From positions 1-20,919 of IMG/VR virus record IMGVR_UViG_3300032285_001208: DNA of 20,919 nucleotides, one strand, 5' to 3'. Source of the stretch: a virus. Each line of letters starts with the position of its first letter. Within the stretch, counting starts at the first letter, position 1. Position numbers and translations under genes: made by a program. Positions 1-4,615 of the stretch are shown in pieces. The notes below the pieces were generated by a model that was not told where the DNA came from, did no database searches, and saw only the letters and a program-made list of their open reading frames with translations.

Positions 1-650
1 AATGGGCGAATCTCGCTGTAATCAAATGTTAGAGCGGTCTGGTTTGGCTTTAAATAAGAATTGATTAGAGCCATAGTCGAGTTAGCCCAACCCTCACGAG
101 TGTCGGGAATTACAAGAATTTCCTCACCGACTGGCTCGTAGATGTCAAAGCCCTTGTCCGCACCCTTTTGGTCAAAGCCAACGCCTACACCAAGCATTGA
201 GGCTTCCATTAGGAATCCAAATGGCTTAGCAGGATTTGATTTGCTCATTTCAGCGGTGGATACGAACGCACAGTTCTGCAACGCAGCCGAATTCTTCTGC
301 TCGTTTACCAGCGGAGTACCCATGACCCACAGACCGCGACCTGGCGGTGTCCACTTCAATTCAAATAGACGGTCAAATGCTTCTTTAGCACTAGCCTGTG
401 CCTTGGCGTCGTTCCAAGGTAGACGGTTGGTCTTGCAGTGGTCTTTCTGCAACGAGTACATGCCGTTGATAACACGCTCGCAAACATCTACCCAAGTCTC
501 TTTAGTTCCGTCTGGCTTCTTACGGCTGTAGGTGCGGAGGAATGTAATCTCGCCCACCGAGTTTCCAGCAGCGTCTTGGTAGCCCCAAGGTACTTTCTTC
601 TCTCTGTAACTATCTACATAATCGGTGGTCAATTTGAATGAAAGGGGCAT
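1..650 (-). CDS. nrdJ: Class II (adenosylcobalamin-dependent) ribonucleoside-triphosphate reductase, N-terminal part
   Basis: Reduces ribonucleotides to deoxyribonucleotides for phage DNA synthesis. Only the first 216 codons are in the window; the gene runs off the left edge. The ATG is at 650. I read MPLSFKLTTDYVDSY near the start, then KWTPPGRGLWVMGTP and LQNCAFVST, then FGFLMEASMLGVGVGFDQKG. These match the monomeric class II family typified by the Lactobacillus leichmannii enzyme. The Cys in LQNCAF is at the place of the first redox-active cysteine of the substrate site. The thiyl-radical Cys and the C-terminal shuttle cysteines lie outside the window. A promoter sits about 45 bases upstream and a possible terminator separates it from the gene before, so it probably heads its own transcript. 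B12 dependence is known for the family and not visible here. Confidence 0.9.
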   Translation of the reverse strand, partial: MPLSFKLTTDYVDSYREKKVPWGYQDAAGNSVGEITFLRTYSRKKPDGTKETWVDVCERVINGMYSLQKDHCKTNRLPWNDAKAQASAKEAFDRLFELKWTPPGRGLWVMGTPLVNEQKNSAALQNCAFVSTAEMSKSNPAKPFGFLMEASMLGVGVGFDQKGADKGFDIYEPVGEEILVIPDTREGWANSTMALINSYLKPNQTALTFDYSEIRP

Positions 651-804: not shown

Positions 805-2250
805 CTATTTAAAGTCGCCCGTTACTTTACGAATTACCTCATTTGTCTGGGTTTCATCCATCCCATTGTTAGGTAATTGATTAAGGACTTGAGCCTTATC
901 TCCGAACAAAGACGACAAAACTCCCGCTGCGCCCTGTCGCTCGACAGTCACTCGCATCAGTTCTTTGGACTCATCTAACTTCTTAACGGTCTCCAACATT
1001 TTGAAGAATCTGTCCATCTCTAGACCCACATTTGGGTCAGGATAACCACCGTTCAAATCCTCTACAAATTTGCCGAATACCACTCGTTGCCCTTGTATTT
1101 CAAGCATTGTATTAATTACGCCCTTGAGTTGGTCTTTAGTTTTCAACTCCAGCGGCAGGTTATACGCACAGGTACTTTGAGGCTGGTAAGCAGGGCAGTT
1201 GTTCTTAATAAAACAGGTATCACATGCTCGCATACTGCTTGCACTAGAAGTTAGCACAGGCACATCACGCAGAACTTCACGTCCATCCGCATCTGGTTCT
1301 AGCACGCGAGTGGTGTCCATACCAACTACAGGAATTGGTCGGATTTCTAATGGATTTCTAGGATTAAGTTTCTGCATGTTAGACCCCCTGTTGGTAACAT
1401 GGGCAGGGGTAGTTTCCTGAGTTGAGTCGGGTAGCGTATTGTCGTTCATAGTGACTAATAAGCCTCCATTATTCTCTAATTGTTGATACGACCATAATGC
1501 TAGTTTAGAAACTTCTACTGCATCATCGCTTTGTATCTTATCTAAATCTAATCCAGCGCGGGTATAGATAGCAGCGTAACGTGGTCTGGCTTGTTCTTTC
1601 ATTCGCTTAGGGTAGCGAATTAACTTAGCGCCATCCCATACGATAGTTTCTCCACGCATCATCGGTGATAACCACGCTAGGGTGCTGGCGGTTTCAAATA
1701 CTGAATTGCGCATTAAATCTGGCTTTGCTACACCTAGCGCATGGAACTTAGACCCGTGCTGAGACGAGTAGCGACGAAGGCTACTCTCTAGCGTCTGGTT
1801 TTCATCAATGTACTCGCTAGGGATAATAACATTTAAATACCTAGTGGCTAGGGATTCTAAATCCTTACCGCTGTATACGACGGCAAACTTCTCTTCTGGT
1901 ACATCAGCCCACACAGTCTGGCGCTGCTGGGCTATAAACTCATCAGGCAAACTAGGATGGTTTACCTCTGCAAATAGGGTAATGCGGTCAATGTTATCCG
2001 CAATAAAGGCTTCGTACTCTACGCAGAAATCTTCGAGCTCATCATACGAATACTCTTTGCCAGCAGGGATGCCTGGATAAACATAAATGTCCACGCCATC
2101 GCGGAAGTAATTAGATAATAGATACTTCTTATTCTTGGGCAAACCACGCTTGATTAGACCCCAGACGCTGACTCCCATGCTGGATACGGCAGCGGACTCC
2201 ATAATGACACGATTGCTAGGAACTTCAGCGCCAAGGTATACAAACTTCAT
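805..2250 (-). CDS. Queuine tRNA-ribosyltransferase/DpdA-like TIM-barrel protein with C-terminal zinc-binding domain
   Basis: 481 residues in two parts. Residues 1-210 have the layout of tRNA-guanine transglycosylase (TGT) and DpdA-like barrels: an N-terminal strand FVYLGAEV, DIYVYPG at 54-60 where active members have a DSG motif, a long helix, then KFHALGVAKPDL (168-179) and VFETAST (184-190). The last resembles the family's H-x-LG...(F/V)D(S/C) segment. The two expected catalytic Asp positions read as Tyr58 and Glu186 in my alignment, so base-exchange activity is doubtful. Residues 340-480 hold C343, C346, C352 and C361 (a likely zinc site) and a helical segment with EIQGQRVVF and NGGYPDPN, which I recall only from phage proteins. 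The start overlaps the previous stop (ATGA), so it is coupled to the HAD-like gene. No queuosine precursor genes are in the window. It could be a non-catalytic barrel that binds nucleic acid. Confidence 0.6.
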   Translation of the reverse strand: MKFVYLGAEVPSNRVIMESAAVSSMGVSVWGLIKRGLPKNKKYLLSNYFRDGVDIYVYPGIPAGKEYSYDELEDFCVEYEAFIADNIDRITLFAEVNHPSLPDEFIAQQRQTVWADVPEEKFAVVYSGKDLESLATRYLNVIIPSEYIDENQTLESSLRRYSSQHGSKFHALGVAKPDLMRNSVFETASTLAWLSPMMRGETIVWDGAKLIRYPKRMKEQARPRYAAIYTRAGLDLDKIQSDDAVEVSKLALWSYQQLENNGGLLVTMNDNTLPDSTQETTPAHVTNRGSNMQKLNPRNPLEIRPIPVVGMDTTRVLEPDADGREVLRDVPVLTSSASSMRACDTCFIKNNCPAYQPQSTCAYNLPLELKTKDQLKGVINTMLEIQGQRVVFGKFVEDLNGGYPDPNVGLEMDRFFKMLETVKKLDESKELMRVTVERQGAAGVLSSLFGDKAQVLNQLPNNGMDETQTNEVIRKVTGDFK

Positions 2251-2702
2251 AGGCGCTTATCCTCTAGTTTCATGTTTATTTGGTGGTCTAACTCTTGCAT
2301 CAGGTCATCCCAACTCTTGCGCCCGCTGCGCCCATCAGGGCGGAACTTAGCGCTAAAGTAAGTTGGGTGCAGGAATAGCAGGGTTTTAATTCCATTTTCC
2401 AAACACATGGTGGCTAAATCCACATCAGAAGTAATAACGAATTCTACGGGGCCGCTAGATTGCACATGCTGAACCTTTAAAAAGTTTCGGTTATCGTAGT
2501 TGCCCACTCGGTCATTTGGAATAAATCCATCAACATCATCTACGCTGTGCTCTTTAGTCCAGCGCAGGGCTTCCTTGTCATCATCACACGCTAGAAAAAT
2601 AGTGCCGTGAGGATTGAGGGAACGGTACAAGGTCAGCCCGTCGTAGATTGGTACTCTATTTTCGGTGCGCAAAACGCCATCCATAAATACGATTATTGCC
2701 AC
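2247..2702 (-). CDS. HAD-superfamily-like protein, apparent nucleophile missing
   Basis: 151 residues with GTG start at 2702, 9 bases after the nucleotidyltransferase-like gene. The N-terminus IIVFMDGVLRT is a HAD motif I region, but it reads F-M-D-G where active phosphatases have D-x-D-G. The usual Asp nucleophile is therefore Phe6 and only the second Asp (D8) remains. FLACDDD (about 36-42) and FVITSDVDLATMCLENG (about 88-104) fit the later HAD motifs. It may be a binding protein or a phosphatase with altered chemistry. The stop overlaps the next ATG (ATGA). The fold assignment is inference from motif order. Confidence 0.55.
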   Translation of the reverse strand: MAIIVFMDGVLRTENRVPIYDGLTLYRSLNPHGTIFLACDDDKEALRWTKEHSVDDVDGFIPNDRVGNYDNRNFLKVQHVQSSGPVEFVITSDVDLATMCLENGIKTLLFLHPTYFSAKFRPDGRSGRKSWDDLMQELDHQINMKLEDKRL

Positions 2703-2711
2703 GATTAATGC

Positions 2712-3605
2712 CTATCTATGCTGTGAAGCAGCCCTGCGAATTAGTGTACTGGTATCTGGGAACTCTGCGCTGCCGTAGGCGCGCTTGTTGTACTCTGCGT
2801 CTAGGGATTCTAGGTCTGTCTTTAGTGCGCGTAGGAACTGAATAACGCCAGAACGCTTACCTGCTTGCCAGCGATAGTTGTAGAAATCGCTGTAGCCCTC
2901 ACCTGTTGGGCTAAAGGCATTGGAGCGCTCCGAGTGAATACTCTCGTATAGAGCATTGCCCTGTGACATTGCAATTCGCATCTGGGAACGTGCGTTAGTT
3001 TTTACTGCGTCATTTGAGGCTGAATTATATAAATTTTTAGCCGCTGTGTAGCGCGTCATCAGGTCAATAGCCAGTGAACGGTCTTTGTTTACACGCTCTT
3101 CCCATTGAGGGTTTGTGGGGGCATCTGAGGCTACTGGAGGTACTGTCCAGTCGTCATCAGTAAGCGAGTAGGCAGCGTAAGGCTTAATATCAATAATATT
3201 TGAGTGAATGTTTACATAAAAGGTTAGCTCAAACGAACCCATGAACAACGACGTATCAGGCTGTAGCTCAGCTCTGAAACCTTCATTGAGCATGTCAGCA
3301 ATTTCTTTATCGCTTAATCCAGTGAATCTAACATTTGACTGGCGAAACTTTACAAAGTCTACGCCTACAAGGCAGTCCAGGTCCCCAGGGTCACGATGCG
3401 CAGCCCATTGGTACGATACGCCAGAACCTGCTAGCCATGCACGTGACCAAGTACTGCCACCAGAATAATGGCTGTCAAGATAATTATTAAGTAGTTGTAA
3501 GATAGCATTTCGTACCTGTGGTGTTAGTTTTCCGTCACGAAATAGACGCGGGTCTAGCCCAGCCGAAGGTTTACTAAAGTATGAAGTTTCTGCTGGCTCT
3601 AGCAT
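2712..3605 (-). CDS. Nucleotidyltransferase-like protein
   Basis: 297 residues. AWLAGSGVSYQW (57-67) followed by DPGDLDCLVGV (72-82) gives the Gly-Ser and D-x-D signature of the DNA polymerase beta type nucleotidyltransferase fold (D75, D77). IIDIKPYA (137-144) supplies a plausible third carboxylate, D139. The C-terminal half is helical and rich in Arg, Ser and Asn with no motif I know. The family transfers NMP groups to proteins, nucleotides, RNA or small molecules; the substrate cannot be told here. It starts with ATG at 3605, GAGGA four bases upstream, and directly abuts the previous stop at 3606. It is followed by HAD-like and TGT-like genes in one operon. Confidence 0.6.
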   Translation of the reverse strand: MLEPAETSYFSKPSAGLDPRLFRDGKLTPQVRNAILQLLNNYLDSHYSGGSTWSRAWLAGSGVSYQWAAHRDPGDLDCLVGVDFVKFRQSNVRFTGLSDKEIADMLNEGFRAELQPDTSLFMGSFELTFYVNIHSNIIDIKPYAAYSLTDDDWTVPPVASDAPTNPQWEERVNKDRSLAIDLMTRYTAAKNLYNSASNDAVKTNARSQMRIAMSQGNALYESIHSERSNAFSPTGEGYSDFYNYRWQAGKRSGVIQFLRALKTDLESLDAEYNKRAYGSAEFPDTSTLIRRAASQHR

Positions 3606-3827: not shown

Positions 3828-4106
3828 TTAGTTATCGGATTTTCTCCTGCTAATAGCATCTCGCATTTTGGCAGCAACTTGTTGGCTATCGTCCGCAGAT
3901 TTTGGTGCAAGGCTGCTTGCTATAAGGGATGCTAAATCATGTTGTCCAATTACATTGGCAATTTCGGAGCAACCAATACGAATTTCGTGGCGCTCAACGG
4001 CGCGACGAGCATCAATTTCCATGCTGAGGTCGGAAGTGACTTCCCAGAATCCTTCTGGGGTAAGCATGACCATAAAGGCGGCTTCTACATAACGTGGCTC
4101 TGCCAT
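3828..4106 (-). CDS. Hypothetical protein, 92 residues
   Basis: Not recognised. The sequence has an N-terminal part with alternating strands (EAAFMVMLTPEGFWEVTSDL) and a helical, charged C-terminus ending in RRKSDN. No catalytic motif or membrane segment is visible. Its ATG at 4106 overlaps the stop of the upstream gene by one base (TAATG), so it is probably translated by re-initiation. It belongs to the run of small unknown genes between 3606 and 6120. Confidence 0.65.
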   Translation of the reverse strand: MAEPRYVEAAFMVMLTPEGFWEVTSDLSMEIDARRAVERHEIRIGCSEIANVIGQHDLASLIASSLAPKSADDSQQVAAKMRDAISRRKSDN

Positions 4107-4615
4107 TAGTTATACAGACCTGCTTCGCCAAACGACTTCTTCTGGTTAAACATCTTAACTGGGCAGAAATCGCAAAGGTATACAGTCTTGCCACGAGGTC
4201 TAATAGACAAACCTTCTTTGCGACGAGCCTGCTCTGTCTGTGGCGACAGTTCCTTACGGTCACTCTTGTAGTCTGAGCATTGACCCTTTGGGCGATTGTG
4301 CAAACTATAGCAAGCCATTGCATCTTCGTGAAACTGGTTCTTGGTCTGGTAGAAGTTAGTACCAAACGAGTCAAGGCCTGAACCTACCTCGCCGTGGATA
4401 AACTCAATCATCTGCTTGCGACCAGACTCGGTAATCCAGATACCTTTAGGAACATTTACTAGAACACCAAAATGCTCATCGCCGTGGCGCTCTACAGTAA
4501 TGTCCAACAAAATGTCGTTAGGGTCTTCGTCGCCGCCAGGCAACTCGTCGATAGTCCCGCAGGTGCGGCAGACAAGTAGACGGAAATGTGGTTCCTGCTC
4601 TACATCTAATCCCAT
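4106..4615 (-). CDS. Cysteine-rich hypothetical protein with several possible zinc sites
   Basis: 169 residues, no family name. It has an N-terminal CRTCGT (C16, C19), a middle CYSLHNRPKGQC segment and CDFCPVK near residue 148. Three Cys pairs spread along the chain suggest one or two structural zinc sites joining distant parts. The segment GDEHFGVLVNVPKGIW looks like a beta-rich core. ATG at 4615 has AGGAGC seven bases upstream. It follows a 55-base gap holding an inverted repeat, so it may be the first gene of a sub-operon. Confidence 0.65.
   Translation of the reverse strand: MGLDVEQEPHFRLLVCRTCGTIDELPGGDEDPNDILLDITVERHGDEHFGVLVNVPKGIWITESGRKQMIEFIHGEVGSGLDSFGTNFYQTKNQFHEDAMACYSLHNRPKGQCSDYKSDRKELSPQTEQARRKEGLSIRPRGKTVYLCDFCPVKMFNQKKSFGEAGLYN

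Follow-up and report, generated by a model that had tools for sequence, protein, structure and literature searches.

The window analysed here (positions 1-20919) is an entire 20.9-kb IMG/VR virus record. Its gene content is actinophage-like, with genes for WhiB, RecA/UvsX, a family A DNA polymerase, a metallophosphoesterase, a RuvC-like resolvase and a Cas4-like exonuclease. An open reading frame of 481 amino acids lies on the minus strand at 805-2250 and harbours the segments Y58-P59-G60 and F185-E-T-A-S-T190, all at the places given by an earlier sequence-only reading. Upstream on the same strand are genes for a 151-aa HAD-like protein and a 297-aa nucleotidyltransferase-like (NTase-like) protein, whose families occur at 140 and 135 of the searched loci, respectively; the gene at 805-2250 nearly always comes after this pair. 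The features of this region are:

1-650, minus strand: class II ribonucleotide reductase, N-terminal part, next gene downstream of 805-2250 (locus gene families)
805-2250, minus strand: fusion of a TGT/DpdA-derived barrel and a C4-hairpin domain, 481 aa (open reading frame, phrog match, alignment, AlphaFold2, hhalign)
808-1245, minus strand: C-terminal domain, residues 336-481, C-x2-C-x5-C-x8-C (C343, C346, C352, C361) and a two-helix hairpin (alignment, AlphaFold2, hhalign)
1465-2250, minus strand: TIM-barrel domain, residues 1-262 (eight ordered strands in AlphaFold2; hhalign to DpdA)
1684-1686, minus strand: S189 at the position of the nucleophilic Asp; Ser in 97, His in 8, Ala in 7, Thr in 2, Gly in 1 and Asp in none of 115 sequences (alignment)
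1741-1743, minus strand: H170, invariant in 115/115, equivalent to the conserved His of the DpdA HG motif (alignment)
1966-1968, minus strand: E95, invariant in 115/115, located where strand 4 ends, next to the base-recognition Asp position (alignment)
2071-2079, minus strand: Y58-P59-G60 at the DSG site, with loss of the general-base Asp; Asp in 27/115 relatives (alignment)
2247-2702, minus strand: HAD-like protein similar to the 3'-phosphatase of T4 Pnkp; its motif I, IVFMDGVLR, lacks the nucleophile Asp (AlphaFold2, Foldseek, alignment)
2712-3605, minus strand: NTase-like protein, GS...DLD...E motif kept in 102/102 (motifs)
4106-4615, minus strand: 169-aa protein, often in the same neighbourhood (family in 60/70 loci)

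The 481-aa protein matched phrog_887, 'queuine tRNA-ribosyltransferase', with an E value of 1.3e-40, and no Pfam match was found. Since phrog_887 appears to contain gp36 of Streptomyces phage BRock, which is itself a member of the 481-aa family, this match was set aside as sole proof of kinship and the relationship was tested separately by hhalign with controls. The alignment of 115 family members matched ten phage DpdA-type proteins with an E value of 8.4e-14 (probability 98) and seven DpdA proteins alone with 5e-11, whereas six unrelated phage families gave values of 0.024-0.96, and eight column-shuffled and one reversed DpdA gave 0.33-0.82. This is well above chance, and on profile comparison the N-terminal part can be regarded as a homologous TIM barrel of the TGT/DpdA group, as its order of segments had suggested. 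The barrel shares with the DpdA proteins of Enterobacteria phage 9g and Rosebush-like mycobacteriophages the order of the DSG and nucleophile segments and a conserved His and Trp. Structure prediction and structural search, which had been proposed as a check, agreed in part. In the AlphaFold2 model, residues 1-262 form a confident fold with eight ordered strands (pLDDT of about 75-94 per block), and Foldseek retrieved phage queuosine tRNA-ribosyltransferases from BFVD (E about 2e-5), but in the PDB general TIM barrels came out on top, with no TGT among the best 50 matches listed. Sequence searches of the PDB, in which the 481-aa protein and profiles of each of the three cassette families served as queries, yielded nothing useful.

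In the TGT of Z. mobilis, the nucleophilic Asp is D280 and the general-base Asp is D102 of the DSG motif; the base pocket of TGT consists of D156, Q203 or His, and the GG of strand 6. In the alignment to 9g DpdA, the counterpart of D-S-G is Y58-P-G and that of the nucleophilic Asp is S189. Like this Asp, S189 lies exactly four residues before the conserved Trp, which is the invariant alignment anchor W193. The nucleophile site is also Ala, Ser or Thr in Streptomyces, Terracoccus and prophage-like members. Position 58 is more variable, with Glu in 31, Asp in 27, Tyr in 23, His in 13, Asn in 10, Phe in 5 and Thr in 4 of the 115 sequences. The suspected loss of both catalytic aspartates is thus borne out, with Y58 in place of the DSG Asp and S189 in place of the nucleophile. 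The segment FETAST is indeed present at 185-190, but the nucleophile site within it is S189. The suggestion of an enzyme using Glu, with Glu186 at the nucleophile segment, is not supported, and Glu186 was rejected as a replacement nucleophile: it is misaligned, three residues upstream of the nucleophile site, and not conserved (Glu in 50 of 115 sequences, Ala in 30, Ser in 16, Thr in 7, Asp and Lys in 3 each, and others).

The equivalents of the base-pocket residues are N97, S127 and V-I-I-P. Across the family, the base-binding GG of DpdA is gone, while the pocket His is present in 65/115 sequences and D97 in 78/115. The zinc site of TGT has the spacing C-x-C-x2-C-x25-H, a pattern not found in the 481-aa protein with its C-x2-C-x5-C-x8-C. 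In the canonical TGT reaction, an Asp nucleophile forms a covalent intermediate with the nucleic acid and a second Asp activates the incoming base (PMC6165067). Because both aspartates are missing and the base pocket is altered, canonical transglycosylase activity has in all likelihood been lost.

Retention of the fold, Ser189 in 97/115 sequences and the DSG Asp in some relatives would be compatible with a protein that still exchanges bases, with Ser189 or Glu186 as the nucleophile, and RefSeq and SEA-PHAGES label the family queuine tRNA-ribosyltransferase or dpdA-like. However, Ser189 is replaced by His, Ala, Thr or Gly in 18/115 sequences, Glu186 is absent in 65, the GG motif is lost and the long relatives have no QueC or QueD (see below), which makes continued base exchange very improbable.

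None of six residues (E95, H170, R110, W193, T202 and R212) varies among the 115 sequences, and position 201 carries either Glu or Asp throughout. Such conservation exceeds the needs of a bare scaffold, and together with the location of E95 beside the base-recognition Asp position it raises the alternative of a re-tooled enzyme, in which the barrel would catalyse a reaction on nucleic acid or nucleotides via the new residues E95, E/D201, H170, R110 and R212. We consider this unlikely, though worth keeping in mind. H170 is replaced by Phe in the Streptomyces chromosomal copies, and the variability of the formerly catalytic position 58 implies that the pocket is not fixed. Moreover, we know of no TGT-fold enzyme that is active without an Asp nucleophile, which also counts against this alternative.

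The surroundings of the gene differ from those of DpdA as well. In actinophages, genes for true DpdA have queC, queD, queE and folE as neighbours. No match to the QueC or PTPS/QueD families was found in 15 long relative records (62-115 kb, some possibly incomplete; the window itself is a 21-kb fragment). The relative phage records contain one phrog_887 match each, and no active TGT paralogue was found in them. Compared with phage DpdA, the 481-aa family has lost both aspartates (the DSG Asp being still present in 27/115) and the GG pocket motif, has a fused C4-hairpin domain, lacks QueC/QueD in its long members and has different neighbours. Hutinet et al. reported DpdA2, a family in which the conserved His is missing (PMC6884629), a deviation different from that of the 481-aa family.

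GATC and CCGG are both absent from the window, against about 43 and 36 expected sites, respectively, in agreement with the avoidance reported before; TCGA and GGCC are depleted. This absence looks like avoidance of host restriction. It had been used as an argument against bulk 7-deazaguanine protection of the DNA, and it does fit an unmodified genome, but the evidence is weak because the avoidance varies among relatives: GATC is missing or nearly so in most of them, but not in the Streptomyces-type members. An association between a kept DSG Asp and no GATC avoidance was seen in raw counts (22/26 versus 11/84), but the tree offers only 3-5 independent pairs and no significance, and the association was rejected.

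At least 434 relatives of the 481-aa protein were found in IMG/VR. Most relatives are metagenomic contigs, which probably belong to freshwater actinobacterial phages. Over 247 pairs, dN/dS (Nei-Gojobori, NG86, approximate) was 0.074 for the barrel, 0.143 for the linker and 0.034 for the C-terminal domain; values this low exclude decay. Although the loss of both catalytic residues could be expected of a decaying pseudogene, that explanation is refuted by dN/dS values of 0.03-0.14, invariant non-catalytic residues and hundreds of relatives. Loss of the catalytic aspartates under purifying selection indicates that the barrel was repurposed, as had been considered in the sequence-only reading. A tree built from 63 barrels separates the DpdA rows from the others by a branch with full support. 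Beyond this branch, Streptomyces, Terracoccus and further early lineages retain the DSG Asp, and the tree requires this residue to have changed at least five times. The nucleophilic Asp would have been lost once, before the divergence of the known family members, and the DSG Asp would have disappeared afterwards from most of the clade to which the window phage belongs.

The C-terminal domain had been described as a four-Cys domain with a phage-specific look. The four Cys are present and invariant in all 115 aligned sequences, and AlphaFold2 places two long helices after C361, in a domain that is poorly modelled. However, the domain is not peculiar to the 481-aa protein. On its own it constitutes gp88 of Bacteroides phage BS162P1, directly after the gp87 barrel, and a related domain (hhalign E 1.3e-5, probability 81) is found at the C-terminus of proteins that are putative small terminase subunits in many Gordonia, Rhodococcus and Tsukamurella phages. 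The Streptomyces chromosomal copies retain the hairpin and have lost the four Cys.

BS162P1 gp87 and gp88 both match the family profile, as adjacent genes for the barrel and the C4-hairpin domain. Unlike the 481-aa family, gp87 keeps both aspartates (TDSGAF and SVDSVTW). The gene run includes the QueC-like gp86 and the QueE-like gp91, and no NTase-like or HAD-like gene was found. BS162P1 is likely a 7-deazaguanine-modified phage. The genes of this run (L077:10182-14193; QueC-like, intact DpdA-like, C4 and QueE-like) are annotated as hypothetical proteins.

The Gordonia proteins (phrog_6902 and phrog_16015) share the C-terminal four-Cys and hairpin domain, but they adjoin TerL and their N-terminal part is unrelated by profile comparison; as a second degenerate TGT barrel it was rejected (probability 9 or less). 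In Rhodococcus phage ReqiDocB7 (L171:152-1548), the small-terminase-like protein upstream of terL seems to be divided between two genes, a split like that of barrel and C4 domain in BS162P1. Resemblance of the C4-hairpin to the C-terminus of proteins whose genes immediately precede that of the large terminase in many Gordonia, Rhodococcus and Tsukamurella phages would agree with a packaging factor, in which this domain makes the 481-aa protein a small-terminase-like DNA-recognition protein; in relatives, no recognisable small terminase is present next to TerL. Yet tens of kb separate the gene from TerL in relatives and in Streptomyces phage GiJojo, where its surroundings are replication or lysis genes, no TGT barrel was detectable in the N-terminal parts of the terminase-linked proteins and the C4-hairpin domain is also found within the que operon of BS162P1. 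A packaging role is thus improbable.

BRock gp36 and GiJojo gp181 are likewise preceded by the two upstream genes, in unchanged order. Both proteins belong to the 481-aa family (about 30% identical over 94-97%), but differ in that the DSG Asp is kept, with Ser or Ala at the nucleophile site. HAD-like and NTase-like genes are also present near several Streptomyces chromosomal copies. The 151-aa protein was modelled as a confident fold (AlphaFold2 pLDDT 89), and its best Foldseek matches were to the phosphatase domain of T4 Pnkp, with modest E values of 0.002-0.01. The position of the HAD motif I nucleophile is Phe in the window protein and Asp in 3/100 relatives, and the protein is apparently a disabled enzyme. 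In the 297-aa protein, on the other hand, G60, S61, D75, D77 and E126 (GS...DxD...third acid, a Pol-beta-type pattern) are present in 102/102 sequences; from these motifs it is likely an active nucleotidyltransferase. For the cassette members, Pfam gave only weak matches, to DUF188 and DUF6932, that of the NTase-like family being to DUF6932, and a PDB sequence search with this family was empty.

Downstream, a class II ribonucleotide reductase gene is present in most freshwater relatives, and the full-length homologue of one relative matches RNR_Alpha and RNR-II_ins_dom. Look-alikes of the 169-aa protein, judged by eye, occur near the Terracoccus and Streptomyces chromosomal copies. In 37-40 of 70 loci, a gene pair for a VWA-domain protein and a MoxR/CobS-like AAA ATPase lies downstream of the cassette on the opposite strand (L001:13238-16790, L043:16075-19483 and L063:16896-20344). 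On Streptomyces chromosomes (L186-L190), the cassette is near endolysin/LysM genes and a recombinase-like gene, which suggests that these copies reside within prophages.

Our preferred reading, to which we assign a probability of about 0.5, is that the 481-aa protein is a repurposed, transglycosylase-dead DpdA barrel acting as the nucleic-acid-binding subunit of a three-gene NTase/HAD/barrel module. Sequence comparison supports the homology, the loss of both aspartates, the purifying selection, the gene neighbourhood and the intact NTase motif; from these we infer the loss of activity, the binding to DNA, the complex and nucleotidyl transfer as the chemistry. The barrel would descend from DpdA, a DNA-acting relative of tRNA-guanine transglycosylase that replaces guanine by a modified base, with base exchange no longer possible. 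We propose that binding to nucleic acid, probably phage DNA, and to partner proteins is the reason why the barrel and the C4-hairpin domain were retained, so that the 481-aa protein would be a targeting or scaffold subunit. The likely catalyst of the module would be the adjacent NTase-like protein, via nucleotidyl transfer, and the Pnkp-phosphatase-like HAD protein may be a second non-catalytic partner. The invariant E95 and the acidic position 201 speak against this proposal, as they could mean a rebuilt active site. The general TIM barrels at the top of the PDB structural search, the poor model of the C-terminal domain and the loss of the four Cys from the Streptomyces chromosomal copies weigh against it as well.

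Non-catalytic subunits with a TGT fold are already known in eukaryotes, and QTRT2 is a precedent. In this TGT subunit both catalytic aspartates are replaced, by Glu and Cys, and it is retained as a partner subunit (PMC6165067). In contrast to the 481-aa protein, QTRT2 partners a catalytic TGT and has no C4 domain, whereas phage records of the window type show no active TGT paralogue. In the open-licence PubMed Central papers searched, no description of a phage family of transglycosylase-dead barrels or of the three-gene module was found.

The presence of DpdA-like genes is taken to indicate 7-deazaguanine in phage DNA, and such labels are found on some records of the 481-aa family. The labels 'queuine tRNA-ribosyltransferase' and 'dpdA-like' in several records are probably wrong in the sense of a base-modifying enzyme. 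At the level of single residues, the entire branch is very probably unable to make 7-deazaguanine, and predictions based on annotation alone therefore need a test for the aspartates. The family shows a graded loss, first of the nucleophile and later of the second Asp, and the split, apparently intact Bacteroides version offers a direct comparison for the fused family. With the linked genes for the NTase-like and HAD-like proteins, a new, testable module is defined in actinobacterial phages. More tentatively, and with clear doubt, this may be a widespread phage module in which two Asp-less former enzymes, a DNA transglycosylase barrel and a Pnkp-like phosphatase, provide the binding parts of a nucleotidyltransferase whose substrate is nucleic acid, with a role in replication, repair or counter-defence.
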